Assembly (NCBI RefSeq): GCF_018141425.1
Contig: NZ_CP058561.1
Location: forward strand, 1,364,001 to 1,428,000
Length of the DNA stretch: 64,000 nucleotides
Direction of reading: 5' to 3'
Origin: Vallitalea guaymasensis
GTDB lineage: Bacteria > Bacillota > Clostridia > Lachnospirales > Vallitaleaceae
Positions within the stretch are counted from its first letter, which is position 1. Every line of letters starts with the position of its first letter. The notes under the pieces are model-generated. The model searched no databases. It was not told the origin of the DNA and saw only the letters and a list, made by a program, of their open reading frames with translations. Below, piece after piece: positions 39,801-63,108 of the stretch. A program made the position numbers and the translations under genes.

Positions 39801-40030
39801 TTCTAACGTCTCGTATATTTCTCTAACACAAAATTTATCCTTAATGTTTACTAAAACAGAACCCTTTGCTCCCTTATCAAATGCAATTAGCTTTAACTAA
39901 AATTTAATAGTTTATTTCTCGCAAAAAGCATATATTACAGACATCTTGATATAAATCACGTTCACACTGACCCTCATTGCTTTCCCTAAAGAGAGTGAAG
40001 GTACGTAGCGAACGGAAATATTTGTTATAT
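39801..40030 (-). repeat. attC site with long, altered interior
   Basis: On the minus strand R'' is ATATAAC and R' is GTTAGAA. The right arm GGTACGTAGCGAACGGAAATATTTG matches the family I arm, and the left arm CTAACGTCTCGTATATTTC also matches. The interior is longer than in other sites and AT-rich, perhaps from an insertion or a join of two sites. 40031-40267 shows nothing recognisable. Confidence 0.65.
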
Positions 40031-40267
40031 GATACAAGCGTAATAATTCGCTCATTATTAATTAATACCTAAGAGCTAATCCATAGCTAAATAAATCTAT
40101 TTTCTTGTTCATACATTAATACATCTTTCTGGTAATAATTTGCAAAACAACACTTTTTAACGAATAAATGTTTACAACACTTATGTCATAGATGTCTTTA
40201 TATCATTTAAGACGTACATTGAAATCTTTTCATTATGCATCTCAATTTGTAAAATCAAGAAAAATCC

Positions 40268-43674: not shown

Positions 43675-43790
43675 ACATAACGTTCCTTGTTTCTGACGTC
43701 TCTGAACTGGACTCACATAGCCCTTCTCCGTAGGCAGTACTTGCACCTGGTGAAGAGATGTGCGTAGCGAACAGAAATATTTTGTTAGGC
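43675..43790 (-). repeat. attC site, family I, 116 bp
   Basis: Minus strand: R'' GCCTAAC, R' GTTATGT. The arms TTTCTGACGTC and GCGTAGCGAACAGAAATAT pair, as do inner CTTCTCC/GGTGAAGAG blocks. Inner sequence TCTGAACTGG ... GCTTGCACCTGG defines family I together with 48334-48449, 57235-57349 and 60921-61035. Confidence 0.88.
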
Positions 43791-43877
43791 GATTGGATAA
43801 TACTGAAATAACCTATAGCCACCTATTACAAATATATACTTACTTTAAGAGTTTATATTAAGTCAGCCCATTAGTTC

Positions 43878-44441: not shown

Positions 44442-44545
44442 AATTTATTCCTCCAAATAATCTATGTAATTATTATTATGATGTCCTAATATAACTAATA
44501 TTATTTCTACATCTTTTGTTTTTCACATAAATAGTATTATCTGTT

Positions 44546-44688
44546 ACCTAATGTATCCGACGTTCCAGCATCTTAGAAGGAGAATCGCTCATGCCCTGAT
44601 TAAGGGCTAATGCGATGACTATCACGACGCGCTTAGGTGGTAGGATGTTTGAGGGCATAACCCTAGAGCAAAATTCATATTGTTATCC
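44546..44688 (-). repeat. attC site, family II, 143 bp
   Basis: Minus strand: R'' GGATAAC and a damaged R' ATTAGGT. The interior CAGCATCTTAGAAGG ... CTCATGCCCTGATTAAGGGC ... GACGCGCTTAGG is family II, with CCCTGATTAAGGG as inner hairpin. Confidence 0.75.
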
Positions 44689-44730
44689 TCCTATATATCA
44701 AAATTGATATCAAACCTAATTGCTTATGTC

Positions 44731-46350: not shown

Positions 46351-46461
46351 TATTATTCAAAGGATAAATTAGCTGGTTAACGCTTGACGTTTCATTTACA
46401 AGGTCATCCGAATTTTAGTTTGTGGTCGCACAATGTTTAAATATATCTAGGAGGTCTTAAC

Positions 46462-47633
46462 ATGCTTTTTATTGGCATTGATGTCGCTTCAAAAAAACAT
46501 GATGTAATTATTATTTCAGAGTACGGTGAAATCCTTTCATAGTCTTTTACTATTGAAAACTCTTCTGTTGGATTTAAAAAACTCCATACGGAAATTTCTT
46601 CCCATACGGAGCTTTTTGATAACGTCCATATAGGGCTTGAAGAAACTGGTATTTACTCCAGTAACATCCGTGACTTCTTGCACTCTGCCGGTTTCAACGT
46701 GTATATGATTAACCCCGTTCTAACCCACCACAGTAGAATGGCATATTCACTAAGAAACACAAAAACTGATAAACTTGACTGCCTTGCAATCTGTAGATAT
46801 ATCATGCATAATTTCACGCATCTCAAACCCTATATATCTACACTATACACGACTTCTGAACTTAAGTCATTATCTAGATTACGTCTAGATAAACTTCATA
46901 CCCTTGCAAAGGCCAAAATGGAGTTCACTCGATTGCTCCAGATTACTTTCCCTGAGTTTATCAAACACTTCAAACAGCATTCTCAGTGGGCTATGAATCT
47001 TTTCTCTTCTTATCCAGCTCCTGCTAAGATTGCTCGTATGCATCTTGACACACTTGAAAGCTTTATCAAAATCAAGGGGGATCGTTTTTCTGCTGCTCAA
47101 TTAATCAAAAATCTTGCTAAAAAAACAATTGGTGATACTTCTATTACCAACTCATTTCTTATCGAGTCTATCATCGATGACATCAATCACTACAACAAAC
47201 AGATTGCTATTATCGATAAACATCTTGATGCTCTAATGGCTGATTTTGATTTTATAACAACTATACCAGGTGTTGGTAACGTTATTGGTGCTTCTATCAT
47301 TGGTGAAATCGGTGATATCTCACGCTTTAGTTCACCTTCTCAACTATTAGCATTTGCCGGTCTTGATCCCTCCATCTATGAATCAGGAGAGTTCAAAGGT
47401 AAACGGTGTCGCATATCTAAACGTGGCTCTAAATACCTCAGAACTTCCATCTTACAGCTACACGTGTTGCGTGTGTAGGAAAAGGCAAGAACAATCAATT
47501 CCGTCAGAAATATCATAAGAAAAAACTTCAAGGCAAGCATCATAATTCTGCACTTTGTAATGTGTCCAAAAACATGATAAATACCATTTTCGCTATGCTT
47601 AACAGTAAAGAGGATTTTATATACATTACATAA
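46462..47633 (+). pseudogene. IS110-family transposase, nonsense and frameshift mutated
   Basis: Starts FIGIDVASKKHDVIII (catalytic D7) after AGGAGG; codon 27 is TAG (46540-46542). The frame continues with GLEETGIYS, TKTDKLDC, then the C-terminal transposase_20 domain TTIPGVGNVIGASIIGEIGD and LLAFAGLDPSIYESGEFKGK. Near 47463 one base is missing, so the last ~55 codons (VACVGKGKNNQFRQKYHKKK onward) are in another frame, ending at 47631-47633. The element is inactive. Confidence 0.9.
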
Positions 47634-47845
47634 CTCACAATATAATTTAGGTATTCTTAGCAGTACCTTTATTTATGATGCTCTTTTTTATCTATTCAAT
47701 ATTTTCTTCTTTTATTTCATTTTTTACTTGACTTTTGTATAGCTGGCTCCATTATTAAAATCACCTTTATTGAAACTTATAGCATCGTGCATAAATCTTA
47801 ATTTAAAGATCTATAAAAAATGCTCTGTAATGATGGGATAATTTC
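47634..47845. other. Right flank of the IS110 element, nothing else recognised
   Basis: 212 AT-rich bases hold no gene. AGGTA/TACCT (47648-47667) forms a small stem that may belong to the element's right end. Confidence 0.35.
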
Positions 47846-47917
47846 TTATAACATTAAGTAAATTGACGACGTCGACTCCCTCTTGGCTCTATTGATGTCA
47901 TCAATTGGCTGTTATGC
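47846..47917 (-). repeat. attC site, short type, 72 bp
   Basis: Minus strand: R'' GCATAAC, R' GTTATAA. The arms AATTGACGACGTCGA and ATTGATGTCATCAATT pair with a few wobbles around a short loop. Related in form to 51967-52040 and 59765-59839. Confidence 0.75.
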
Positions 47918-48333: not shown

Positions 48334-48449
48334 ACTTAACGTTTCCGTATTTCCCACGGCTCTGAACCAGACCTCAGAGCCTTTCTTCGTAGACGGTGCT
48401 TTCACCCGGTTAAGAGATATGTGTAGCAAACGGAAATATTTTGTTAGAA
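48334..48449 (-). repeat. attC site, family I, 116 bp
   Basis: Minus strand: R'' TTCTAAC, R' GTTAAGT. Interior TCTGAACCAGACCTCAGAGCC ... GGTGCTTTCACCCGG is family I. Arms GTTTCCGTATTTCCCACGG and GTAGCAAACGGAAATAT pair. Confidence 0.88.
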
Positions 48450-49426: not shown

Positions 49427-49565
49427 TTATAACGTCTCTGTATTTCCGACGTCCCAGCCAGCACCTTAGAAGGAATTGCTTATGCCCTGAATAAGTGCTA
49501 ATTCAATGACTGTCGGTGGGATGTGTGAGACCCCTATCCGAACGAATGGAAATACATTGTTATAT
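49427..49565 (-). repeat. attC site, family II, 139 bp
   Basis: Minus strand: R'' ATATAAC, R' GTTATAA. Arms TGTATTTCCGACGTCCC and GGGATGTGTGAGA ... GAATGGAAATACA pair; interior GCACCTTAGAAGG ... ATGCCCTGAATAAGTGC is family II. Confidence 0.85.
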
Positions 49566-49698
49566 GATATTGACTCATTCAGCTTCGTAACTTTACCCTA
49601 GTTTTTTTAATACTAAATTAAATAAGAACCATACCATAATAATTAAAATTAATATCTTTGACCCCAAAGAAATCTCCTGACATGAATAAGTTACTTTC
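49566..49698. other. Short segment between two attC sites, no gene
   Basis: 133 AT-rich bases. The sequence before the second site (CCCCAAAGAAATCTCCTGACATGAATAAG) is similar to that before the first (CTCAAAGAAATACCCTGAAATGAATGAG), so a geneless cassette remnant or a duplication of the joint is likely. Confidence 0.45.
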
Positions 49699-49790
49699 TT
49701 ATAACGTCCCTTATTTCCGACTTCTCAGCACCTTAGAGGCTCATGCTCTAAATAAGTGCTAATGTGTGCGCCGCCCCGACAGGGCTTAGC
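49699..49790 (-). repeat. Half attC, family II
   Basis: R' box side TTATAACGTCCCTTATTTCCGAC and interior CAGCACCTTAGAGGCTCATGCTC ... GACAGGGCTTAG are present; the R'' arm is missing and the sequence passes into the tail of the CPBP gene. Confidence 0.6.
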
Positions 49791-49802
49791 CGCCATAATT
49801 AA

Positions 49803-50397
49803 TCATCGCAATAATATCAAAAAAATATGTGCTAAAATAACTGGTACTATTCTTCTATACCTAATATAGTATAATGAAAATATAGTAAACATTACTCCTA
49901 AATAAATGAGTGCTATAAATCCTTGATAGATATGTGGAAGGAGCTGTAATATAATACTTAAGATAATAGCAACTAATGAACTATTAGTAAGTGCTTCTAT
50001 CTTTTCGATAAAGAAGGAACGAACTATCAGTTCCTCAAAAAGAGGATTTATAACCATTAATAATACATACCAAACCGTTATTTTAGATCTTTATTTTTAG
50101 GTTGAATATTATAAAAACTTGGAGCAATATAATATATTAGGATACTTACAAAATAGCTACCTAAATAATATAGTAAAATTAAAACAATACTATGCAAATA
50201 TCTATAAATCTAAATGATAACCCAAAGCGCTGTAAATTGGAGTCATCTTTATACATGACATACCACAAGATTAAAATACCACCTAACCTTTCTAATATAG
50301 CCAGTATAAATTGATAATTTGAGTGGAGCGAGCTATATCCATGGATTGTGGGTTCTAAAAGTACAATTACATAAACTACAATGATATTATTAATATT
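49803..50397 (-). pseudogene. CPBP intramembrane protease gene, frameshifted
   Basis: An 84-codon frame ending at 49803 holds NPLFEELIVRSFFIEKI (EExxxR), LLPHIYQG and VPVILAHIF, the CPBP motifs. Upstream, in other frames, the normal N-terminal spans continue: YYLGSYFVSILIYYIAPSFY, NLQRFGLSFRFIDICIVLF and LAILERLGGILILWYVMYK. At least two indels, one in a run of A near 50090, separate them. A piece of the same gene's 3' end recurs at 58378-58490. Confidence 0.8.
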
Positions 50398-51143: not shown

Positions 51144-51273
51144 ACATAACGTGTATGTGTTTGCGATGTCCCCCAACCTCTAGAAGGAGGTGCTCATGCC
51201 TTGAGTAATGGCTAATGTGCCGACTGTACCTTTAGGTCTTAGGTTGGGGGATGTTGTAAACACAGTGTTATGA
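51144..51273 (-). repeat. attC site, family II variant, 130 bp
   Basis: Minus strand: R'' TCATAAC, R' GTTATGT. A long stem: GTGTTTGCGATGTCCCCCAACCT pairs with AGGTTGGGGGATGTTGTAAACAC. Interior AGAAGGAGGTGCTCATGCCTTGAGTAATGG belongs to family II. Confidence 0.88.
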
Positions 51274-51360: not shown

Positions 51361-51873
51361 TTATAAGAGTTCAATCCATTTTTTTATACCTTTTTTACCT
51401 TTTAATATAATTACATTTTTACCCATATCCATACTCTCATTAAACAGTTTTTGTCTTCTTTTATCTTTCTTAGGATAATCAAATAAAATATACTTAACAA
51501 TATTAATATCGATTTTTTCTATACACCCCTCTGAAATATCAGGTCGAACACTACCCTTATATTTGAAATATCTTCTTATAAATCTATACAAACATATAAA
51601 TCTGTTTACTTTTAAATATATAATAGTATCACAACAATTAAACCTACCATCTTCTTTACAGTCAGCAAATCTATTTCCTTCATATATCCATTTTCTTTTT
51701 TCTGTTATAGATTTAGTCATCACAATTTGCTTTTCTGTTGAGCGTATCTTCCAATTTCTTTCCCAAAAAATTTTATCATTATAGTGTATTGGAATATTTA
51801 GTTTCTTTCCTACTATATTAGCTAGAGTGGTTTTACCTGAACCCGATGACCCTGTTATCCATATTCTTTCCAT
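51361..51873 (-). CDS. P-loop kinase, DNA topology modulation protein (FlaR)-like
   Basis: Walker A GSSGSGKTT at residues 8-16, then IPIHYNDKIFWERNWK, WIYEGNRF and RFIRRYFKYKGSVRPDISEGC. This is the pattern of FlaR/AAA-type adenylate-kinase-like proteins, usually called topology modulation proteins by homology. Biochemical role unknown; a kinase is expected. Confidence 0.8.
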   Translation of the reverse strand: MERIWITGSSGSGKTTLANIVGKKLNIPIHYNDKIFWERNWKIRSTEKQIVMTKSITEKRKWIYEGNRFADCKEDGRFNCCDTIIYLKVNRFICLYRFIRRYFKYKGSVRPDISEGCIEKIDINIVKYILFDYPKKDKRRQKLFNESMDMGKNVIILKGKKGIKKWIELL

Positions 51874-51966: not shown

Positions 51967-52040
51967 TCATAACGTTACGTGATTTGACGACATGGACATC
52001 CTTCCTTGTTACTATCCATGTCGTCAAATCGCTGTTATGG
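51967..52040 (-). repeat. attC site, short type, 74 bp
   Basis: Minus strand: R'' CCATAAC, R' GTTATGA. A nearly perfect stem, GATTTGACGACATGGA with TCCATGTCGTCAAATC, around a loop ATCCTTCCTTGTTAC. Confidence 0.9.
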
Positions 52041-52065: not shown

Positions 52066-52818
52066 TCATATTAACTTTGCCAATTCCGTCGGATAAAATG
52101 TCTTTATATTGTCTTTGAAATCCTGGACTTTAACCCATACAACTTTAGCCGGTAATAAATCAGCATTCATATCCATCTCATTAATCTTATAGATATCTCC
52201 TGATAGCTTAACTTCATATATATGAGAAATCTCGTGCCCCATCATACCCTTGACTTCAAAGAAATTCTCAAATATGATGAACGGCTCATACTCTACGACA
52301 TGAACACCAAGTTCCTCAAAAGCTTCTCGTTCAAGTGCTTCTTCTATCTTCTCTCGATATTCTATTCCACCGCCAGGTAAATGGTAATATACTTCACCGT
52401 CATCTGATTCCTTAATAACAAGAATCTCATCATCTCGTCTGGCAATCAATCTTGCAGTATTACGTATCGACTGTTTCAAATACTCAAAGCTTATTATCTC
52501 TGTCTCAAAATGACGCTCTGTGAACTCTGTTAGAGCCTTGATCTGATACTTATCATAACTATTCAGTTCTTGAGCAACAACTAACTTATCTTCATCATCG
52601 TCAGCACGTCTGATAATCGCAATAACCTTACCAGTATATCGTTCAACTGGCTCGAACACACCCAAAACATATGCATCTATCTCCTGCCCATCACCAGATA
52701 CAGTGTCAGGAATATATCCATAGTTCAAAGGATAGATCATATTAAATCTGGGGTGCTTTGAACCCAACGGTCTGTCAATTATAACCTCTACATCCTTACC
52801 TAAATAATCATACAACAT
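52066..52818 (-). CDS. Inorganic pyrophosphatase-like / Nudix fusion protein
   Basis: The start at 52816-52818 follows ATAGGGGGACA; an ATG further up (52875) lies inside an attC. Residues 1-100 (DRPLGSKHPRFNMIYPLNYGYIP, GDGQEIDAYVLG, GKVIAIIRRADDDEDKLVV) match the core of family I inorganic pyrophosphatase. Residues 120-250 are a Nudix domain: GGGIEYREKIEEALEREAFEELG. Both halves handle phosphoanhydrides, so the fusion may hydrolyse a nucleotide and its pyrophosphate, but this is inference. Confidence 0.75.
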   Translation of the reverse strand: MLYDYLGKDVEVIIDRPLGSKHPRFNMIYPLNYGYIPDTVSGDGQEIDAYVLGVFEPVERYTGKVIAIIRRADDDEDKLVVAQELNSYDKYQIKALTEFTERHFETEIISFEYLKQSIRNTARLIARRDDEILVIKESDDGEVYYHLPGGGIEYREKIEEALEREAFEELGVHVVEYEPFIIFENFFEVKGMMGHEISHIYEVKLSGDIYKINEMDMNADLLPAKVVWVKVQDFKDNIKTFYPTELAKLI

Positions 52819-52855
52819 TAAATGTCCCCCTATATAAAAACTAGTATGGTATGTC

Positions 52856-53029
52856 CCATAACGTCCTTCGTTCACGACGTACCTACCACTCTAGAGGTGC
52901 TTGCTCATGGCGAACTTGCTTCGTCTAATGCGAGTGCCGTACCGACGGGCTTAGGGGGCTGTATGTGGTCGATATTCTTACTCCAAAGCCGTGCCCTCTG
53001 TCGACCCTTGCGTTAACGTATTGTTAGCT
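52856..53029 (-). repeat. attC site, 174 bp variant
   Basis: Minus strand: R'' AGCTAAC, R' GTTATGG. Left arm TAACGTCCTTCGTTCACGACGTACC; the right part GTCGATATTCTTACTCCAAAGCCGTGCCCTCTGTCGAC is an extra inner hairpin, found again at 58500-58550. Confidence 0.8.
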
Positions 53030-53058: not shown

Positions 53059-54120
53059 TCAGTTATCACCAAATTGTTCTATAAACTCAAATAGAATATT
53101 TACAAACTTAGTTGGTTGCTCAAAGTGAATATCGTGCCCGGACTTAATCGTAATAAGCTTAGTATCCTTAAACGAATTAACAACTCTACTGGCATCCTCA
53201 TCCGTGTTAGCTGCATACAAGACACCATCCTTACCATAATTAGTTCTAGCTTTAAGATAGATTGAAGGGCATTCAATATCACTAAGTAACTCCTCAATAT
53301 CTATTCCTTCCTTCCATCTACCACTATAAAATGTTTCTGCAAACTTCAAATCAAATTCATCAAGGTATCTGGTACCATGCAACCATTTATAAGGTATATA
53401 CCAAATTTTCAAAGCACTATTCTGATGCTTTAATCGATATTTCCTAGCTGTCTCATATACTAACTTTCTTAAGTCACCAAATAGGTTCCAAAAATAGCCA
53501 TTCAATATGTAATATAAGTCGTAATCTATTTCTGAACCATCAACCAAATACTTATGCACTACTTCAAAACCATCATGCCATACAAATGTATTCTTCATTT
53601 CATTAGGTTTAACTCTAAAGAAAGGTGGATCTTCAAATACTACACCTTTCACATAATCTTTAACATTAACAGTTAACCAAGCAGCTATGATTCCACCAGA
53701 AGAATGACCACAAACGATACAGTCATCTCCAATAACATTCTCAATGAACCACTTGAAATCATTTCCCATAAATTTACAAGTATACTTTAATTCATCATGA
53801 CTGGATTTACCATGACCATGGCAATCAATTGCATATACATGATACTTTTCTTTCAAACTAAGAAGAACATTGGCATAATCTTCCCAACACATTGTCTGGC
53901 CATGAATCAATAACAGTGGTTGCAAATCATTCTTGCATTCAACGTAATTTAAGATTGTACCATCGTCTAAGGCTACACTCTGCTCATTATAAACTCGTCT
54001 AACCTTAAACATTGGAATTCTATCATAATGTAGATTCATATAACAATATCTCAGAAATGCAATAAGTAATGCTAAAATTATTACATATAAAATCATCAAA
54101 TGAATTATGTCATCTAACAT
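53059..54120 (-). CDS. Alpha/beta hydrolase, membrane-anchored; start codon at the attC joint
   Basis: Residues 8-27 form one membrane span. The domain has LLIHGQTMCWEDY (oxyanion hole), DCHGHGKS, VCGHSSGGIIAAW (nucleophile Ser) and SGHDIHFEQP (His). 353 residues fits. The ATG (54118-54120) is the last three bases of the upstream cassette side, and the second codon TTA starts the GTTAGAT core of attC. The next ATG is eight codons on. Neither has a clear ribosome site. Confidence 0.85.
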   Translation of the reverse strand: MLDDIIHLMILYVIILALLIAFLRYCYMNLHYDRIPMFKVRRVYNEQSVALDDGTILNYVECKNDLQPLLLIHGQTMCWEDYANVLLSLKEKYHVYAIDCHGHGKSSHDELKYTCKFMGNDFKWFIENVIGDDCIVCGHSSGGIIAAWLTVNVKDYVKGVVFEDPPFFRVKPNEMKNTFVWHDGFEVVHKYLVDGSEIDYDLYYILNGYFWNLFGDLRKLVYETARKYRLKHQNSALKIWYIPYKWLHGTRYLDEFDLKFAETFYSGRWKEGIDIEELLSDIECPSIYLKARTNYGKDGVLYAANTDEDASRVVNSFKDTKLITIKSGHDIHFEQPTKFVNILFEFIEQFGDN

Positions 54121-54248
54121 TTCTTATTTCCAATGTCCTAGAGCCTTAGAGGGAGTTGCTCATGCCCTTGATAAGGGCTAATGCAACGACTGTCGCGACG
54201 CGCTTAGGCTGTGGAATGTGCGTAGCGAACGTAAATATTTTGTTAGAT
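54112..54248 (-). repeat. attC site, family II, 137 bp
   Basis: Minus strand: R'' ATCTAAC, R' GTTAGAT. Interior GAGCCTTAGAGGGAG ... CCCTTGATAAGGGC ... GACGCGCTTAGGCTGTGG; right arm GCGTAGCGAACGTAAATATTTTG. The usual ACG before the core has become ATG, forming the hydrolase start. Confidence 0.9.
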
Positions 54249-54289: not shown

Positions 54290-54856
54290 TTAATAATGTC
54301 CTATTTGTGGCTTATCCTTTGACCTGTGTTTACGCTTAGGTTCATATTCCTGCCAATATACTCTTTTATCATTATATCTGGTTCTTGGTTCTTTCTTTTC
54401 TGCAGAATAACCTATATATACTATGCCAAGTGGTGTAACAAAATCAGGTATATTTAGTACTTTCTTCAACATTCTAATTCTATTTTGGACAGGATATATA
54501 CCAATCCATACTGTTCCTAATCCTAAACTTGTTGCAGCAATTAACATGTTCTCTATTGCTGCGCTACAATCTTGAATCCAAAGTTCATGATCAGCACCCT
54601 TTAATGCTAATTTCATATTACCACAAACTACAATTCCTACAGGAGCATTGTATCTTGCATATTTGCACTCTTGTTTTATTTTTGAAAGTTTGTCAGCTTC
54701 ATCGACAACAATAAATTCCCAGGGTTGACAATTTACAGCTGTAGGTGCAGCCATAGCTGTTTTTAATAATGTAATAATTGTCTGTTTATCAACTTGTTTA
54801 TCTAGATATTTACGTATACTTCTTCTTTCATATATTGTTTTGATCACCTCAGTCAT
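54290..54856 (-). CDS. Nitroreductase family protein
   Basis: The protein opens IYERRSIRKYLDKQVDKQTI, then AMAAPTAVNCQPWEFIVVDE, SAAIENMLIAATSLGLGTVWIGIYP and FVTPLGIVYIGYS, the standard FMN-binding nitroreductase pattern. It would reduce nitro compounds or quinones with NAD(P)H. GGGAGGATTATA precedes the ATG. Confidence 0.9.
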   Translation of the reverse strand: MTEVIKTIYERRSIRKYLDKQVDKQTIITLLKTAMAAPTAVNCQPWEFIVVDEADKLSKIKQECKYARYNAPVGIVVCGNMKLALKGADHELWIQDCSAAIENMLIAATSLGLGTVWIGIYPVQNRIRMLKKVLNIPDFVTPLGIVYIGYSAEKKEPRTRYNDKRVYWQEYEPKRKHRSKDKPQIGHY

Positions 54857-54913: not shown

Positions 54914-55072
54914 ATCTAACGTTTCCTTATTCCGACGTCCCAGCACCTTAGAAGGAGTTGCTCATGCCCTGATTAAGGGCTAATGCAACGACTGTCGCGA
55001 CGCGCGGGATGTGTAAGGGCATTTCTCAAAAGAATTACCCTTACCCGAACGAATGGCAATACATTGTTAGAT
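54914..55072 (-). repeat. attC site, family II, 159 bp
   Basis: Minus strand: R'' ATCTAAC, R' GTTAGAT. Interior CCCAGCACCTTAGAAGGAGT ... CCCTGATTAAGGG ... GCGGGATGTG, plus a second hairpin GTAAGGGCATT ... AATTACCCTTAC. Confidence 0.9.
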
Positions 55073-55100: not shown

Positions 55101-55562
55101 TTACTTGATTCCAGACTTATTTTTAGTATCCCATGATATGTTTTCATTCCAATCTGACCATAATTCTTTCAACTTATTTACCAGCCACAACCCTCCGAAG
55201 GTTGTAGTCCCTTCATGATTCTTATAAATAATCCAATCCTTACTACTGTCAAACCAAAAGCTTTCGTTATTCCAGAAGTATATTTCTGTTTCCCAAAAAT
55301 CATAATCTACAATATTACTTATCTTTGTTGAAATTCCATCTTCTCTAAATTCATAAATATCCATAATCTTTCGATCTCTAAAAATATTCTTTATCTCTAT
55401 AAGTTTAGAATCTGTGTCAAGATATTCTGAATCAAATGCTATCAAATCATTTCTTTTACAATCATACAGTGGATACCAATAATGCCTACTGATGTCCCAA
55501 ATAGAATTTAGTTCTTTTCTAATCTTTGATGCTTCCTCTTTACTCAAGATTGTTTTTTTCAT
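55101..55562 (-). CDS. Conserved hypothetical protein (153 residues)
   Basis: The start at 55560-55562 follows AAAGGAAATATT. A soluble, Trp- and Asp-rich protein: HYWYPLYDCKRNDLIAFDSEYL, YDFWETEIYFWNNESFWFDSSKDW, HEGTTTFGGLWLVNKLKEL. The mix resembles immunity-type cassette proteins. Not assigned. Confidence 0.5.
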   Translation of the reverse strand: MKKTILSKEEASKIRKELNSIWDISRHYWYPLYDCKRNDLIAFDSEYLDTDSKLIEIKNIFRDRKIMDIYEFREDGISTKISNIVDYDFWETEIYFWNNESFWFDSSKDWIIYKNHEGTTTFGGLWLVNKLKELWSDWNENISWDTKNKSGIK

Positions 55563-55602
55563 AATATTTCCTTTCAATGGAGATAAACTAGGTAATAATT
55601 TT

Positions 55603-55808
55603 ATCTAACGTTACGTGTTCCTGACGTCCAAGCACCTTAGAAGCGCACTCTCCTGCTCTGATTAAGTAGCTAATATGGGCGCCGTCCCGTCAGGGCTTAG
55701 GTTGTGGGATGTGCGACTGTATTTCTATCAACTCTAGTTACCAATTACTATGGTAAAGCCTTCAAGTAATTATACCATGTTAGAGCGAACAGGAACATTT
55801 TGTTATAT
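55603..55808 (-). repeat. attC site, family II with extra hairpin, 206 bp
   Basis: Minus strand: R'' ATATAAC, R' GTTAGAT. Usual arms and CTTAG blocks, and a ~75-base insertion (55720-55790) with ACTATGGTA/TACCATGTTAG pairing before the GAGCGAACAGGAACAT arm. Confidence 0.85.
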
Positions 55809-55872: not shown

Positions 55873-56364
55873 TCATATATACTTTAAACAGTTCAAAAGG
55901 TGCTTTTCACCAATACTTCCACATCGCAACTTTAATATTGCATCATCAAAACTAAACCACTTTAATTCATCTACTTCTATAGATTTTGAAAAGTCACCCT
56001 TCTCAACTTTCATCAAATACCCTAACATTAGCAATTCATGCTTTTCATAATAATAACTCTTGATATATCTCAATTTATCTGATCTTTGCCCAGTTTCCTC
56101 AATAACTTCTCTTATAGCCGTTTCTTCTGCAGTCTCACCTTTCTTTATATACCCAGCAACTAATACCCAGTTAGTCCTTGATACATAGTTTTGTTTCAAT
56201 AGTAAAACCTCATTGCATTCGTTTACTACAGTTACTAGAACACTTTGCCCAACCTTTTCAAAATAAGGCTTCTTACAAGTGTTACAATAAGGTATTAATC
56301 CCTCATCTCCAAGTTCTTTTTCAATTAACATTTCACCACATTCAGGGCAAAATTTATATTTCAT
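55873..56364 (-). CDS. Nudix hydrolase with zinc ribbon (NudC-like)
   Basis: A zinc ribbon, CPECG and CNTCK (C7, C10, C27, C30), precedes a Nudix box: GYIKKGETAEETAIREVIEETG. This combination is typical of NADH-pyrophosphatase-like Nudix enzymes acting on nucleotide derivatives. 163 residues. Substrate unknown. Confidence 0.88.
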   Translation of the reverse strand: MKYKFCPECGEMLIEKELGDEGLIPYCNTCKKPYFEKVGQSVLVTVVNECNEVLLLKQNYVSRTNWVLVAGYIKKGETAEETAIREVIEETGQRSDKLRYIKSYYYEKHELLMLGYLMKVEKGDFSKSIEVDELKWFSFDDAILKLRCGSIGEKHLLNCLKYI

Positions 56365-56397: not shown

Positions 56398-56608
56398 ATC
56401 AAACGTTTCGTATTTCCGACGTCACAGCGCCTTAGAAGGAGTTGCTCATGCTTGTGAGTTTACGAACAGCTAATGCAACGAGAGTCCAGACTTGGCTTAG
56501 GCGGTGGGATGTGCGGTCAGTGTGGCAATTATTTATATTTCTGAGTATATTCCGTAGTCGTTAAACTCATTATACCATAACAGAGCGAACCGAAATATAT
56601 TGTTATAT
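56398..56608 (-). repeat. attC site, family II with extra hairpin, 211 bp
   Basis: Minus strand: R'' ATATAAC, R' GTTTGAT. Arms TCGTATTTCCGACGTCACAGCGCCTTAG and CTTAGGCGGTGGGATGTGC pair; a ~75-base insertion before GAGCGAACCGAAATATA resembles that of 55603-55808 and of 58255-58349. Confidence 0.85.
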
Positions 56609-56628: not shown

Positions 56629-57195
56629 TTAGTATACCTTGCGATTAAAATATTCAACTATCAGTTTCTCACCATTATACATCAGCATACTCATACTTCC
56701 CATATGTAATTTCGTTATTCCTGAACCATATTCACCATCTGACAAAGTATACAAAAGTGAATTGATTGCACCGCCATGAGATACAATTAAAATGTTTTTA
56801 TCCTCATATCTTTTAGCCAACTCCAATACCTTATTATTCACTCTTTCTCTCAAGAGCTGCCAGTTTTCCATACCAGCATATTTCCTATCTGGATATTTTT
56901 CCAACCTCTCATCTAGTGTCATCCCGGATGCTTTACCATAGTCTCGTTCAATCAGATCTTCTTCTAGAATAACTTCTTCTTCTCCAATAGTTTCAGCTAT
57001 AACTTTAGCTGTACTTTTTGCTCTTTTCAAAGGACTAGAAAATACTATATCCCAATTATACTTTTTTAGATATTCGCCAACCACTCTAGCTTGTTCTAAT
57101 CCAGTTTTATTTAAATCTATATCTTCTCTGCCCTGAAGTTTAGTAAGCTTATTCCATTCTGTTTCTCCATGTCTAATGATACCTATTTTACCCAT
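56629..57195 (-). CDS. Histidine phosphatase (phosphoglycerate mutase-like)
   Basis: Motif RHGETEWN at residues 8-15 (catalytic His), FSSPLKRAKSTAKVIAE, EDLIERDYGKASG and a second His motif IVSHGGAI: the branch 1 histidine phosphatase layout. 188 residues is usual. It probably removes phosphate from a small metabolite. AGGTTTTC precedes the ATG. Confidence 0.92.
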   Translation of the reverse strand: MGKIGIIRHGETEWNKLTKLQGREDIDLNKTGLEQARVVGEYLKKYNWDIVFSSPLKRAKSTAKVIAETIGEEEVILEEDLIERDYGKASGMTLDERLEKYPDRKYAGMENWQLLRERVNNKVLELAKRYEDKNILIVSHGGAINSLLYTLSDGEYGSGITKLHMGSMSMLMYNGEKLIVEYFNRKVY

Positions 57196-57234: not shown

Positions 57235-57349
57235 ATCTAACGTCCCGTATTTCCGACGTCTCTGAACTGGACCCTCAAAGCCCTTCTCCCTGGCGGTGCT
57301 TGCACCCAGTGAAGAGATGTGCGTAGCGAACGGAAATATTTTGTTAGAT
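57235..57349 (-). repeat. attC site, family I, 115 bp
   Basis: Minus strand: R'' ATCTAAC, R' GTTAGAT. A textbook family I site: CGTCCCGTATTTCCGACGTC, CTGAACTGGACCCTC, CTTCTCCCTGGCGG, GGTGAAGAG-like and GCGTAGCGAACGGAAATATTTTG. Confidence 0.92.
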
Positions 57350-57401: not shown

Positions 57402-58232
57402 CTAAACCCTATAATATGACCCTAATATTTTAATGTCAAATCCTTCGGTTACCTTTATTACTGCATCCTTTACAGCTTCATCCCTTTGGTAGCAACCGTC
57501 AACATCTATAAAGAAATTATAATTCCCTAACCCCGTTTTTCTAGGTCTTGAAATTATAGACCTGAGGTTTATACCTCTATCTGAAAAAATATTTAATATC
57601 TCACACAATAGACCTGGTCTATCTACATCATTACTTACAACAAATAATGTGTTCCAGTCAACACTAACAATATCTTCATCATTAAGTTCTTTAGATAGAA
57701 TTATAAATCTTGTTTCATTATCAATAGAATCTGCTATATCTTCAACTACTAAATCAAATACTTCATTTTTATCTAACATATGACTTGGTATAATCGCAGC
57801 CTCATTTCTATCACCATTTAAAGCTTTTTCATAGGACGTGCTGTTACTAGCTGTTGTTATTATCTCAATTTCCCCCAATTTTTCAATAAGATCTATACAT
57901 TGATTATGTGCTTTAAACTGTGTATAGACTCTAGTAACTTCTTTTATATTATTACAGTTAGCTACTAAAGTAAATCTAATAGGTAAAACAATTTCATGTA
58001 TTATCTTTAAATCTGAATGAGTTAATAAATCCAATATTATCTGTACAAATCCATCTAATGTATTCTCAATTGGAATTACTCCCATCGCACACCCATTTTC
58101 AATAGCTTGAAAGGTACTCCGAATAGACAAATAGTATTCTAACTGCATTTTTATACCTTGTGAAGCTAAATATTTTTTAGTTGCTACTTCTGTAAATGTG
58201 CCCTTTGGTCCTAAGACAGCTATTCTGTTCAT
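57402..58232 (-). CDS. pheA: Prephenate dehydratase with ACT domain
   Basis: The domain has AVLGPKGTFTEVATKKYL, GVIPIENTLDGFVQIILDLL and NSTSYEKAL, then a ETRFIILSKEL end typical of prephenate dehydratase, which makes phenylpyruvate for phenylalanine synthesis. Residues 200-276 form the ACT domain with the GLLCEILNIFSDRGINLRSIISRP (GALV/ESRP-type) regulatory motif. It is full length (276). A biosynthetic enzyme as a stand-alone cassette is unusual. AGGAGG precedes the ATG. Confidence 0.92.
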   Translation of the reverse strand: MNRIAVLGPKGTFTEVATKKYLASQGIKMQLEYYLSIRSTFQAIENGCAMGVIPIENTLDGFVQIILDLLTHSDLKIIHEIVLPIRFTLVANCNNIKEVTRVYTQFKAHNQCIDLIEKLGEIEIITTASNSTSYEKALNGDRNEAAIIPSHMLDKNEVFDLVVEDIADSIDNETRFIILSKELNDEDIVSVDWNTLFVVSNDVDRPGLLCEILNIFSDRGINLRSIISRPRKTGLGNYNFFIDVDGCYQRDEAVKDAVIKVTEGFDIKILGSYYRV

Positions 58233-58254: not shown

Positions 58255-58349
58255 TTCCGAAAGTGGTAATTAATTATATTTTTGATTACTTTTCCGTAGT
58301 CTATAAACTTATTATATCACACAGAGCGAACGGAAATATATTGTTAGAC
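58255..58349 (-). repeat. Half attC (R'' side)
   Basis: R'' GTCTAAC (minus) and GAGCGAACGGAAATATA arm, together with the AT-rich inner hairpin seen at 56515-56590, are present. The R' arm is missing upstream of the pheA start. Confidence 0.65.
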
Positions 58350-58377
58350 GGCGTCAACTGTTAGCCACTATAATTAA

Positions 58378-58490
58378 TCATCGCTATAATATCAAAAAAC
58401 ATATGTGCTAAAATAACTGGTACTATTCTTCTATACCTAACATAGTATAACGAAAATATAGTAAACATTACTCCTAAATAAATGAGTGCT
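58378..58490 (-). pseudogene. 3' fragment of the CPBP protease gene (duplicate)
   Basis: About 95% identical to 49803-49914, the end of the frameshifted CPBP gene, including the TGA. The fragment stands between two half attC sites, so it travels or was created as a small broken cassette. Confidence 0.85.
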
Positions 58491-58578
58491 CGTTAGACTT
58501 AGGCGGCCGTATTTGGTCAGCATTTTCACTCCAAAGCCGTCCCCTCTGCTGACCCGAAGCAGGAACATGGTGTTATGA
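58491..58578 (-). repeat. Half attC (R'' side)
   Basis: GACTTAGGCGGCCGTATTTGGTCAGCA ... GCCGTCCCCTCTGCTGACC and GTTATGA (R'' TCATAAC on the minus strand) match the right half of the 52856-53029 site. The R' arm was replaced by the CPBP fragment. Confidence 0.65.
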
Positions 58579-58641: not shown

Positions 58642-59679
58642 TTATTGCATATTCAAATGCTCATCAACTAACCATTTAATGTGTTCTTTAAAAGATTCAT
58701 GATACTTTGTATAACTATCAGCTTCATGTTGATAAAAATATACACTATTGTCATCATCAACTAATCTTATGCAATAATAGTCACCACCACCATTAGTTCC
58801 AATTGCAAAGTATTCTTTGTCCCTAATTTCTTTCTTCTTTTCTCTTGAATCAAGAGTATTGTATGCTATAAAACTTCGTAATGTGTGAAATAAGCTACTG
58901 TCTTTTCCAAGCCATACCCAATTATCATCATCAGCAGCGTCTTTATAATACAGAGACTCAGGAAAGTCACTTATTAGAAATCGTCTATAAAATTCAGGCA
59001 TTTTCACTCCTAATTCATTCTCTAATAAGTGGATCTTCTCAACTGTGAATCTAGTCCCAGTGAAATTAGGCAATCTTGTATTTACCCAAGGTTGCTTTTC
59101 TTTGGGATCTAGTTTATAACCTGACTTGATATAAACACCTTGTAGGTACTCGCAAATTTCTACTTGTCTATAGGATCGTGCATATGTATATGCATTCGTT
59201 TTCCCGAAGGACTCTGTATCGTATACTTTTGCGACATCCAAACCATTATCAACTAAGTATTTCACCACATGTAAATGCCCACTATTAATTGACTTAAACA
59301 ATGGATTAGATAAAATAGTACTATAATCATACTCAGCCCCATTCTCTCTAAGATATTTGACAACATCTAGGTGTCCTTTATCTGCCGCACTTGCAAGTGG
59401 ACGGCAATTATGTAAAGTTTCATTTTTATTTATATCAGCACCATTTTTGAGTAGTACTTTAACAGCTTCAAGGTTTCCTTTCTTTGCTGCAACATGTAAA
59501 AAAGTGCCAAACACAGTTATAATTCCTAGCATCTCAACATCTTCTTTAATCATCTTCTTAATAAGTTTAGTATCAGAATTATTGATTGCACTGTTAAACA
59601 TTATTACTTTCTCTTTGTCTTCTTCTTCAGCCATTCTCCATAAGATATTGCTCTCTGCTTTTCTTTTAAAAAACTTCAT
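58642..59679 (-). CDS. Ankyrin-repeat protein with C-terminal SMI1/KNR4 domain
   Basis: Residues 30-180 hold at least four ankyrin repeats (GTFLHVAAKKGNLEAVKVLLKNGADIN; RPLASAADKGHLDVVKYLRENGAE; NPLFKSINSGHLHVVKYLVDNG). Residues 210-340 match SMI1/KNR4 (FTVEKIHLLENELGVKMPEFYRRFLI; FAIGTNGGGDYYCIRL). SMI1 domains are frequent immunity proteins; ankyrin fusions are known in that group. 345 residues. Confidence 0.82.
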   Translation of the reverse strand: MKFFKRKAESNILWRMAEEEDKEKVIMFNSAINNSDTKLIKKMIKEDVEMLGIITVFGTFLHVAAKKGNLEAVKVLLKNGADINKNETLHNCRPLASAADKGHLDVVKYLRENGAEYDYSTILSNPLFKSINSGHLHVVKYLVDNGLDVAKVYDTESFGKTNAYTYARSYRQVEICEYLQGVYIKSGYKLDPKEKQPWVNTRLPNFTGTRFTVEKIHLLENELGVKMPEFYRRFLISDFPESLYYKDAADDDNWVWLGKDSSLFHTLRSFIAYNTLDSREKKKEIRDKEYFAIGTNGGGDYYCIRLVDDDNSVYFYQHEADSYTKYHESFKEHIKWLVDEHLNMQ

Positions 59680-59764: not shown

Positions 59765-59839
59765 TCATAACGTCCCGCGAACTAGCGACGTGTGGCATCC
59801 GTCCGATTAAAAGCCCATGTCGCTAGTTCGCTGTTAGCG
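59765..59839 (-). repeat. attC site, short type, 75 bp
   Basis: Minus strand: R'' CGCTAAC, R' GTTATGA. Nearly perfect stem GCGAACTAGCGACGTG with CATGTCGCTAGTTCGC around a short loop. Confidence 0.92.
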
Positions 59840-59865: not shown

Positions 59866-60882
59866 TCACCTCAAAGTTAGAACAGAAGCCTTTAATAATT
59901 CTATCTGTTCATCTAGCATCTTCATTGACTTAATTGTGTCTATAACTTGCTGGTAACCTAAATCACATTCATCTCTAGAATTAACTTCTATACCAATGGA
60001 TCTCTTTAAATTGTATTCAATCCATCCAATCATATTAATATTCAGAGCTCGCCACACATATTGGAGATCATTGAAGTGAATTGGACATACACTGTGATAA
60101 CCCTTTAATACCTCTAAGAATGCATCTATGTTTATTGTGCAGTCCTTACATTCTGACCAATATACCGCCACTTCGACTAGCTCAAATGTTGGATTAACGT
60201 AACCTGCTGCTTCCCAATCAATGATAATTGGTTTACCATCTACTCCCCACATTACATTCTTAGGATCAAGGTCACGATGGCTAATAACTTGACGCTCCAA
60301 TAATTCTAATGCTTTAAGTGATTCTGTCTCAGCTAAATCAATGTAATTAATATCAATATCTTCTAACCTCTTAAGTGTATCTGAGTTATTAGCTTGATCT
60401 AATATACCTTGCCAATCAATCTTACTACGCTTACCATCCTTAATATCAGGATTTTCAATTGATAAAAAATCAATCTGATGTAATTGTCCAAGAAGAACAC
60501 CTACCTTATAGCATTCGACCAAGTTCTCAGGTCTGTGCGTGTAAGAAAGTCCATCTAACCAGTCAAACACCTGATAATACTGTCCATCAATACTGTGTAT
60601 AGTCTTTCCTTCAATCTTCTTCACGGCCGAAGCAGATAGCCCCGTATTTACTGCAATGATTGATACCTCATCTGCAAATAAATGATTCTTCATAGCCGTA
60701 GGCCGCAACATTATCTGGGGATTTAAAGCCTTAATGAAATAATGCCCTTTACTTGTTGCCACATCAAACGACTTATGCAGTAGACCACCAAACACTTGCT
60801 TAGGCTTTTCAACTACCTCCCCCAACTCTAGCATCGTAGCTAACTCATCTATCCGTATGTTATATTCAACATTATTCTCCAA
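59866..60882 (-). CDS. Aminoglycoside phosphotransferase (APH) family kinase
   Basis: The protein-kinase-like APH fold is visible: FGGLLHKSFDVATSKGHYFIKAL (ATP loop and Lys), VISHRDLDPKNVMWG (Brenner HxDxxxxN) and PIIIDWEAAG (metal-binding Asp). 338 residues. Members phosphorylate aminoglycosides, homoserine or sugars, so resistance is possible but not shown. Confidence 0.85.
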   Translation of the reverse strand: MENNVEYNIRIDELATMLELGEVVEKPKQVFGGLLHKSFDVATSKGHYFIKALNPQIMLRPTAMKNHLFADEVSIIAVNTGLSASAVKKIEGKTIHSIDGQYYQVFDWLDGLSYTHRPENLVECYKVGVLLGQLHQIDFLSIENPDIKDGKRSKIDWQGILDQANNSDTLKRLEDIDINYIDLAETESLKALELLERQVISHRDLDPKNVMWGVDGKPIIIDWEAAGYVNPTFELVEVAVYWSECKDCTINIDAFLEVLKGYHSVCPIHFNDLQYVWRALNINMIGWIEYNLKRSIGIEVNSRDECDLGYQQVIDTIKSMKMLDEQIELLKASVLTLR

Positions 60883-60920: not shown

Positions 60921-61035
60921 CGCTAACGTTTCGTATTTCCGATGTCTCTGAACCGGACCCTCAGCGCTCTTCTCCCTGGCGGTGCTTGTACCCGGTGAAG
61001 AGATATGCGCAGCGAACGGAAATATATTGTTATAT
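60921..61035 (-). repeat. attC site of the first cassette, family I, 115 bp
   Basis: Minus strand: R'' ATATAAC, R' GTTAGCG. Arms CGTATTTCCGATGTC and GCGCAGCGAACGGAAATATATTG; interior CTGAACCGGACCCTCAGCGC ... GTGCTTGTACCCGGTG. It closes the cassette that starts at attI. Confidence 0.92.
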
Positions 61036-61075: not shown

Positions 61076-61966
61076 CTATTTGATCCCATACGATATAAGT
61101 GTACACGACGGCTTTAATATATACACTGTATCTTTATTATCTATTACATGGTCACATATACTCGCATGACTATCACTAAAAATTTTAGCTTCTCCTTTTG
61201 TAAGACCTCTGTCAACAAGAGTCTTCTTCATTTTTTCTTTATCCTCATATGATAGCCTTTTATTCCAGTCCCATGCTGTTGTTATTTCGTCATATTCCTT
61301 ACTATGTTTAGCACTATCACCATATGGATTGATAAATTTTACTCTGTCATTAAGACGGACATCTACATTCTTCAAACCTAGTTCTTGCATATATATTGGT
61401 ATCTTTATACCAACTCTATAATCTCTACCACCTTGATTCAATTCATTTCTATATATCTTTCTATATAAGGGTGTCATTCCAGTCCCAATGTAATCAAAAC
61501 CGCTAAAATATTGGACGGTCTTTTCAATCTCTAAATCACCTTCCAAACAGATGACCATACCACCTTTTATGACTGAATGTATCATTTTATTGAGAATGCT
61601 TTTGGCATTAGGAATATGTCGTAGAACTGCCTGTGAAATTGCTATGTCATATTTTTCTTCTGGTAAAAACTCATTCAAATCGCACTTAATAAAATTAGTA
61701 TCGTACTCAAGTTCTGTAAAAATATGTCGTGCATCATTCAACAATGTATCGCTAATATCAACTCCTGTATATGTACTACCCTCAGGTAGAATAGGTAAAA
61801 GCAATAAACCTATATAACCAAAACCACACCCATAATCAATTATCTTTACAGGTTTCTCAATCTTCCATACTTTGTCTACAAGAAATTCAATGTAATCATC
61901 ATTGCACCATCCATTGCGGATTGCTTTTAAAAACTCCAACCTATCATCCCAATATGAATCATTCAT
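61076..61966 (-). CDS. SAM-dependent methyltransferase (first cassette)
   Basis: Motif I IDYGCGFGYIGLLLLP, motif II GVDISDTLL and ISQAVLRHIPNAKSIL are in order, as in class I methyltransferases; GGMVICLEGDLEIEKT and the basic KMKKTLVDRG end follow. Substrate unknown. GGGAGG precedes the ATG. A paralogue with a deletion of the SAM-binding part lies at 3964-4621, almost 57 kb further from the integrase. Confidence 0.85.
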   Translation of the reverse strand: MNDSYWDDRLEFLKAIRNGWCNDDYIEFLVDKVWKIEKPVKIIDYGCGFGYIGLLLLPILPEGSTYTGVDISDTLLNDARHIFTELEYDTNFIKCDLNEFLPEEKYDIAISQAVLRHIPNAKSILNKMIHSVIKGGMVICLEGDLEIEKTVQYFSGFDYIGTGMTPLYRKIYRNELNQGGRDYRVGIKIPIYMQELGLKNVDVRLNDRVKFINPYGDSAKHSKEYDEITTAWDWNKRLSYEDKEKMKKTLVDRGLTKGEAKIFSDSHASICDHVIDNKDTVYILKPSCTLISYGIK

Positions 61967-62035: not shown

Positions 62036-62109
62036 GTTATATAACTACAATATTTCCGAATGTCGCTAATACCTCCAAATCAGATGTATTACCGAACGTC
62101 GTAAATACT
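62036..62109 (-). other. Probable attI site
   Basis: ATATAAC (62039-62045) gives GTTATAT on the minus strand, and beside it is TATTTCCGAATGTCG, the same order as the R' arm of attC (core, spacer, TATTTCCGACGTC). Two direct repeats follow: 62050-62073 and 62086-62109 (about 18 of 24 bases equal), the layout of DR1/DR2 in known attI sites. It lies between the integrase stop and the first cassette gene. GTTATATAAC is itself palindromic. Confidence 0.75.
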
Positions 62110-62130
62110 TACTATCCCTTACTCTTCCCT

Positions 62131-62976
62131 TCACATAATATCATCCAACGGACTCTTAATACTCATAATATTCTTATTTGTAACATGTGTATATATTTCT
62201 GTGGTTTTTGAACTTGAATGACCTAATAATTCTTGTATATATCTAATATCTGTTCCACTTTCCAACAAATGAGTTGCAAAACTATGTCTAAGACTATGTA
62301 CAGATACTTTTTTCATTACACATCCTTTTTCACATGCATTTTTAAATATTCTTTGTACAGTTCTTTCTGTTATATGCTTATCTTTATCAGCACCTTCAAA
62401 TAACCATTTATTTGGTCTATATTCCTTATAATACTTCCTTAATTGTAACAAAATACTTTCTGATAACATAACATATCTATCTTTGTTACCCTTACCTTGC
62501 TCTATCTTAATCAGCATTCTTTGACTATCTATATCATTTATTTTTAATTTTACTACTTCACCAACTCTTAATCCTGAAGAATATATTAATGCTAATAAAG
62601 TTTTATGTTTATTATTTTGTAATGATGCCAAAATACTTTTTACTTCTTTTTTACTTAATACATTTGGCAATTTTCTTTCTTTTTTTGGTCTTTCAACATA
62701 TACCGTTAACTTTAATTTATGTAATACATGTTCATTCAGAAACTTTATACTGCTGATTGTTTGATTAACATAACTATGTGAACATTCTTTTTCCATAAGA
62801 TAACTTAAATACATTTTCACATCTGTCTCAGTAATTTCAATAATATCCTTTTTAATATAATCAATAAACCGTTTAATATGACTTATATAACATTTTTTAG
62901 TCTTACTTGAATAACCTTGTATAGTTAACTCTTGGGTATATTTCCTTATTATATTATCATTACTATCTGTTATCAA
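62131..62976 (-). CDS. Tyrosine recombinase, integron-like integrase without the IntI insertion
   Basis: The start is TTG (62974-62976) with AGGATG 9 bases ahead; no in-frame ATG lies upstream. Residues 6-90 form the core-binding SAM-like domain; residues 105-281 the catalytic domain with R137 (SSGLRVGE), K162 (GKGNKDR), H227 and R230 (HSLRH), H253 (LGHSS) and Y262 (YTHV). The C-terminus IKSPLDDIM resembles IntI ends. From GKG to HxLRH there are 71 residues; in IntI1, about 110. So the IntI-specific extra domain is absent. Likely acts on the attC/attI sites; this is inference. Confidence 0.85.
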   Translation of the reverse strand: MITDSNDNIIRKYTQELTIQGYSSKTKKCYISHIKRFIDYIKKDIIEITETDVKMYLSYLMEKECSHSYVNQTISSIKFLNEHVLHKLKLTVYVERPKKERKLPNVLSKKEVKSILASLQNNKHKTLLALIYSSGLRVGEVVKLKINDIDSQRMLIKIEQGKGNKDRYVMLSESILLQLRKYYKEYRPNKWLFEGADKDKHITERTVQRIFKNACEKGCVMKKVSVHSLRHSFATHLLESGTDIRYIQELLGHSSSKTTEIYTHVTNKNIMSIKSPLDDIM

Positions 62977-63108
62977 ATGTCATCATCCTTCTAAGTAAGA
63001 ATCTCCCCTAATTATACCTTAGCTATAATAAATCTAATTTAAATTATATGTATTAACTAATATTTTGTCAATTAGTTACAAATTCAATAGAAAACTGTAA
63101 TAATTTAT
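62975..63108 (-). repeat. Integrase leader, duplicated at 40755-40896
   Basis: Covers the 5' untranslated region and promoter of the integrase gene. About 80% identical by eye to 40755-40896. Confidence 0.75.
63043..63071 (-). promoter_or_regulatory. Sigma-A promoter of the integrase gene
   Basis: TTGACA (63066-63071) and TATAAT (63043-63048) with a 17-base spacer on the minus strand, a perfect consensus. Start of transcription would lie near 63036, giving an untranslated leader of about 60 bases. Since cassettes follow in the same direction, the transcript may reach them. No LexA-type box is seen in the leader. Confidence 0.8.

Follow-up and report, generated by a model that had tools for sequence, protein, structure and literature searches.

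A probable chromosomal integron of a distinct type in Vallitalea guaymasensis, headed by an integrase without the I2 helix

The locus described here raises the question of whether a recombinase that lacks the domain characteristic of IntI can head an integron, and, if so, what kind of integron that would be. The locus lies in a 64 000 nt stretch (bases 1364001-1428000) of the closed 5.63 Mb chromosome of V. guaymasensis, hereafter called the window, and comprises some 15 complete hairpin sites together with single-gene cassettes that share one orientation, headed by a tyrosine recombinase without the IntI-specific insert (insert-less). On the evidence of its sequence and that of its relatives, we consider it highly probable that the locus represents a distinct type of sedentary chromosomal integron, one that operates in the absence of the I2 helix. 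The features of the window are listed in Table 1.

The integrase gene encodes an intact protein of 281 aa, with a TTG start as listed, in which the catalytic residues R137, K162, H227-R230-H231, H253 and Y262 are conserved. The IntI-specific additional domain (the I2 helix), located between the K and HxLRH motifs, is absent. By direct count, 63 residues separate GKG (161-163) from HSLRH (227), compared with approximately 104 in IntI1. When a single motif-to-motif rule was applied to all proteins, the spacing was 67 in the window integrase and 66-67 in its relatives (71 in one), against 108 in IntI1 and five other canonical IntIs. An earlier note on this DNA had described an integrase without the IntI-specific domain and given spacings of 71 and about 110; the figures were slightly off, but the absence of the domain is borne out by the residue counts and by the TIGR02249 integron-integrase profile. 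This profile matched the window integrase in two pieces (profile positions 2-179 and 234-314) that leave out the IntI-specific stretch between them; the score of 232.7 bits fell below the cut-off of 265. The protein ends in ...KSPLDDIM, and a 29-sequence structure model (pLDDT 86) had VchIntIA (2a3v) as its top PDB match, followed by an archaeal Xer. In many relatives (L030, L031, L042, L055, L078 and others), an extra N-terminal region of ~70-300 aa in open frame precedes the core-binding domain; this region is absent from the window enzyme.

To the left of the integrase, the genes of the window are on the minus strand with hairpin sites between them, from 61031 down to approximately 43675 with a trace at 39994, and the repeated sites are confined to a single strand. 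At the putative attI, 10 of 12 outer bases are complementary to the first attC in its 5′ arm. Inspected by eye, the starts of cassettes 1 and 3 each pair with the outer arm of their attC at 10 of 12 positions, and cassettes 1-3 all mismatch at position 8. Clear end matching in the window was confined to these three cassettes, which are nearest to attI; the deeper cassettes are partly scrambled. The attC sites were detected with a scored stem finder, using upstream and shuffled controls. A strict perfect-palindrome finder recovered only some sites together with false ones, and was dropped. An Rfam search of the window gave no match.

It should be noted that an IS110-like transposase gene, seemingly interrupted by a stop, sits inside the cassette array (46440-47640). 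A 96 bp stretch is found twice in the window (49819-49914 and 58395-58490, 97 % identity) beside partial attC sites, and is perhaps a duplicated cassette fragment. Far from the array, and on the opposite strand, the chromosome carries two attC copies (G000:C1:4697591-4697709 and 4749876-4749994, at 4.70 and 4.75 Mb) that are 71-80 % identical to one window site and could represent solitary cassettes.

Table 1. Coordinates of the window locus and of resistance-gene regions
Feature	Position	Strand	Remarks
Perfect sigma-70 consensus TTGACA-N17-TATAAT, directed at integrase and array	63043-63071	-	Pattern match only
Insert-less integron-type tyrosine recombinase, 281 aa	62131-62976	-	Motifs, profile, structure model
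Putative attI: two GACRTTCGGWAATA-type repeats followed by GTT, the crossover core (62045-62043)	62043-62110	-	86 bp past integrase stop
Cassette 1: methyltransferase	61076-61966	-	
attC 1 (AAC...GTT)	60925-61031	-	
Cassette 2: APH-family phosphotransferase	59866-60882	-	
attC 2, short form	59769-59835	-	Outer arm vs cassette 2 start 11/12, sole mismatch at position 8, by eye
Cassette 3: ankyrin repeats and SUKH domain	58642-59679	-	
Partial attC, 5′ arm with adjoining sequence	58498-58574	-	
Partial attC, 5′ arm	58263-58357	-	
Cassette gene: prephenate dehydratase	57402-58232	-	
attC	57239-57345	-	
Cassette gene: histidine phosphatase	56629-57195	-	
attC	56402-56604	-	
Cassette gene: NUDIX hydrolase	55873-56364	-	
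attC	55607-55804	-	
Cassette gene: unknown protein	55101-55577	-	No Pfam family
attC	54918-55068	-	
Cassette gene: nitroreductase	54290-54856	-	
attC	54116-54244	-	
Cassette gene: alpha/beta hydrolase	53059-54120	-	
attC	52860-53025	-	
Cassette gene: pyrophosphatase-NUDIX fusion	52066-52875	-	
attC, short near-perfect hairpin	51971-52036	-	
Cassette gene: P-loop kinase-like	51361-51873	-	By eye
attC	51148-51269	-	
Partial attC	49695-49789	-	
attC	49431-49561	-	
attC	48338-48445	-	
attC, short form	47850-47913	-	
attC, R′ end degenerate	44538-44695	-	
attC	43675-43791	-	
Partial attC, leftmost array trace	39994-40037	-	
blaVEB regions	L214:4001-5790, L217:1201-2260		
tet(X3) regions	L126:1468-3693, L128:4968-7230, L216:3001-4986		

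Circular cassettes closing at G^TT would be expected to carry an attC whose 5′ arm pairs with the start of the same cassette, which is the stretch following the previous GTT. In 33 loci with 138 pairs of adjacent sites, the attC 5′ arm matched the nine-base stretch behind the previous GTT at a mean of 5.9 positions, compared with 3.6/9 for its own downstream bases and 3.3/9 for other sites (p=7e-31). Alignments placed a boundary at the same point: the sister genomes G011 and G012 share 99 % identity as far as the attI GTT and 54 % past it, and for the window and a related locus (L028) the corresponding values are 89 % and 44 %. Since cassettes have been swapped at 99 % flank identity, the insertions are recent. 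These comparisons indicate that the cassettes are circles of one gene each that insert at G^TT.

Relatives of the window integrase at 45-91 % identity were identified in four phyla (Bacillota, Bacteroidota, Spirochaetota and Nitrospirota); none has the insert, and most head similar arrays. Integrases at 45-91 % identity within the same family share the arrangement of the window. The scan of named genomes yielded 80 loci, from Halanaerobiales, Fusibacter, Paenibacillaceae, many Bacteroidota, Spirochaetota, Nitrospirota and others, and no relatives were found in a scan of viral_contigs. Repeats of ~80-200 bp at a spacing of 0.5-2 kb lie downstream of the integrase and rarely upstream; in a stem-based scan across relatives, hairpin density reached 6.3 per 10 kb on the downstream side, compared with 1.3 on the upstream side and 1.4 in shuffled sequence. 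An attI core, located by its pairing with the first attC, lies 38-119 nt past the integrase stop in 30 loci. Among Bacteroidota, 79 of 296 evenly drawn genomes carried a relative at E 1e-60 or better, a count that includes array-less members. Loci without a detectable array exist (for example L045, L054, L085, L091 and L092), so not every member of the family is an active integron. Two relatives (L076 and L119) come from a contig set with a putative assignment to an Undinarchaeales archaeal MAG. Draft contigs often stop within a few hundred bases past the integrase, in many of the 80 loci, as expected if attC repeats break assemblies.

The conserved arrangement bears on the alternative that the array is an attC cluster moved by some other recombinase, either the host XerC/XerD or an IntI acting in trans, with the window enzyme being an unrelated passenger or a transposon recombinase. 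The window genome does contain a XerD-type protein (L001) that scores over its cut-off, and related recombinases at four loci (L037, L083, L124 and L125) are tied to IS91-type transposases. However, there is no IS91-type transposase beside the window enzyme, and the linkage of integrase, attI and downstream array is kept across phyla. The attI directly follows the integrase gene, and the first cassette of the sister genomes diverges exactly at the attI GTT. Canonical IntI exceeded the TIGR02249 cut-off in none of 16 array-bearing genomes (the window genome and 15 others) and in 2 of 398 Bacillota genomes. The earlier note held that a true IntI elsewhere in the genome, with a matching attI, would speak against its reading, and none over the cut-off was present in the window genome. 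We regard movement by another recombinase as very unlikely, and favour an insert-less enzyme that serves its own array.

The absence of the I2 helix raises the question of how such an enzyme would recognize its sites. In the outer arm, 7 paired bases after GTT are followed at position 8 by C.A on the top strand (G.T on the bottom) in 105 of 124 sites, after which pairing resumes; true sites were chosen partly by outer pairing, with position 8 excluded from the selection. The inner stems of 133 sites contained 264 mismatches that are A.C on the top strand (G.T on the bottom), compared with 29 that are G.T on the top; the scoring of the inner stem treats A.C and G.T alike. In 129 of 133 sites the bottom strand folded more stably than the top, compared with 54 of 131 control segments; in the window sites the energy difference is small (0.2-2.3 kcal/mol). 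The central spacer is one-sided, typically 1 + 5 or 3 + 6 nt. When canonical attC sites (15 sites from three genomes) were scored in the same way, they averaged 2.6 bulges, chiefly an additional C and A in the left arm, which are the known extrahelical bases; the insert-less attC sites averaged 0.47. An enzyme that lacks the helix for reading extrahelical bases is, therefore, paired with sites that are nearly without them. Because extrahelical bases are what IntI reads, recognition must differ, and the proposal that single-stranded hairpins are recognized differently here gains support from the near-absence of such bases.

These features are consistent with a model in which the insert-less recombinase binds an attI of its own, located just 3′ of the integrase gene, and integrates single-gene circles at that site. 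The cassettes would enter as folded bottom-strand attC hairpins, with the crossover at G^TT. Strand choice in the absence of the I2 helix may be made by the G.T pairs that complete the bottom-strand stem, where the top strand has A.C mismatches, and a one-sided bulge of ~4 nt adjoining the cut site may also contribute. We infer the role of the window enzyme and its function in the cell on this basis: it would catalyse cassette exchange, and the bottom strand would be its substrate.

A tree of recombinases placed the insert-less array integrases in one clade (SH-aLRT 82-87), with catalytic residues intact across several phyla. The sampled canonical IntIs formed a separate clade with a support of 100, with the window integrase outside it, and the IS91-linked recombinases fell between the two. 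Together the three groups made up one superclade against Xer (support 96.7). This topology is relevant to the possibility that the locus is a degenerate canonical integron, in which an IntI lost both insert and activity and left a fossil array. Several window attC sites are partial, the IS110-like element breaks the array, and integrases of both kinds end in SPLD and share YAAC/GTTR cores, all of which speak for this possibility. Nevertheless, the separate clades, the intact catalytic residues, the recent cassette insertions and the systematic difference in attC structure all argue against degeneration, which we consider extremely improbable.

The preferred reading of a distinct type agrees with the earlier note, which had proposed a distinct, independently evolved integron system: the type is distinct, given that canonical IntI exceeded the cut-off in 0/16 genomes and that the attC sites differ. 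As to the second part of that proposal, a clade of both integron types apart from the IS91 group was neither supported nor rejected (p-AU 0.60), so that independent evolution is no more than a possibility. The YAAC/GTTR core sites common to both types argue for some common ancestry.

Acquisition of I2 has been treated as the origin of IntI from a Xer-like recombinase, with intermediates lacking (PMC7790495), and naturally insert-less integrons make this claim directly testable. Integron surveys select for the additional domain (PMC2426708, PMC9668308), and the methods stated there support the suggestion that searches based on the IntI domain would miss the window integrase. IntegronFinder 2.0 reported a single complete integron in Bacteroidetes proper, in Salinibacter, and a single one in Firmicutes, in Limnochorda (PMC9024848); insert-less integrons help to explain why Bacteroidota and Bacillota have looked nearly free of integrons. 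We found no paper on a general insert-less integron system in a search that extended to neither preprint servers nor subscription journals. One report on a related organism speaks of 'integrons' (PMC6647913), but uses the word for integrated plasmids and is not a prior mention. By its organization, sites and apparent cassette traffic the locus is an integron, and its integrase and attC sites both fail the tests that define the canonical kind.

Insert-less integrons also appear to be a source of resistance cassettes. The blaVEB-3 gene of the Klebsiella plasmid pC39-334kb lies behind an insert-less integrase with a truncated N-terminus and an attI, after the sequence TTAGGGA followed by GTTAGCGGTAATTTAACC, and in pMS2H5VEB-1 the blaVEB-1 cassette begins at the identical G^TT, between cmlA5 and aadB, which are class 1 type cassettes. 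The attC of blaVEB-1 (125 nt) is of the insert-less type: 7 bases pair with the start of its own cassette, position 8 is C.A and the bottom strand folds better. Its closest matches among the compared loci were attC sites from Bacteroidota, at two loci that have insert-less integrases (L059 and L155), which suggests that this ESBL cassette is of Bacteroidota origin. On Acinetobacter plasmids, tet(X3) lies directly after an N-truncated insert-less integrase (73 % to L055), annotated as xerD/tpnF in the literature, and an attI-like GTT. Although tet(X3) has a fitting boundary next to attI, the attC-like sequence that follows the gene has a 5′ arm that does not match the gene start, so the status of tet(X3) as a cassette is only suggestive.

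Taken more broadly, these loci may represent a second widespread type of integron that acts on bottom-strand single-stranded hairpins without I2 and selects the strand by G.T pairs rather than extrahelical bases. Such a type would be common in Bacteroidota, would have fed blaVEB-like cassettes into class 1 integrons and may preserve a state that preceded IntI. We judge the chances of this wider proposal to be about even.

Among known systems, the rAID loci of Bacteroidales come close enough that the window locus could itself be a rAID-type system. Their hallmarks are a tyrosine recombinase, short genes that share one orientation and intergenic motifs that are conserved (PMC12247911). The window likewise has a recombinase upstream of short co-oriented genes, and one of its cassettes carries a SUKH domain. 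A rAID-like locus on a Bacteroides ovatus plasmid (L215:4695-10774) has an insert-less recombinase, an immunity-type array and compact repeated intergenic hairpins. Its recombinase is 51 % identical to the L055 integrase, and it heads SMI1/KNR4, Imm26 and PoNe genes. In contrast, rAID genes are mainly immunity genes, whereas the window has one SUKH protein among ten cassettes, which are mostly metabolic or enzyme genes. By eye, the L215 intergenic hairpins look unlike those of the window, and the insert-less family is far wider than Bacteroidales. The published description, which does not mention integrons, sets rAID loci apart as Bacteroidales-only and without attI or attC (PMC12247911). We consider it unlikely that the window locus is a rAID-type system; the rAID loci are probably one branch of the insert-less family and not its definition.

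Other recombinases resemble the window enzyme in part. In a subgroup of integron-like simple tyrosine recombinases, the insertion is reported as not fully conserved; in the accessible part of that report, however, it is called essential for integron function, and no arrays or attI are reported for insert-less members (PMC8138268). The IS91-linked recombinases belong to the same superclade, and two of them (L037 and L083) end in SPLD and have no insert, but they adjoin an IS91-type transposase and have no array. XerA and XerD share the fold and the length of the catalytic domain with the window enzyme but lie outside the integron/IS91 superclade; they act at a single dif-type double-stranded site and have no cassettes. 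Canonical integrons (IntI1 and VchIntIA, class 1 and sedentary chromosomal) are alike in having an integrase beside attI, single-gene co-oriented cassettes, attC hairpins with YAAC/GTTR cores and a G^TT crossover; VchIntIA is the top structural match, and blaVEB cassettes occur in both types. Unlike them, the window type has no I2 insert (67 vs 108 residues), its attC sites are nearly free of extrahelical bases, and their outer arm has 7 paired bases, the conserved C.A at position 8 and then further pairs. The insert-less integrase also reads in the same direction as its cassettes, with attI after the 3′ end of its gene.
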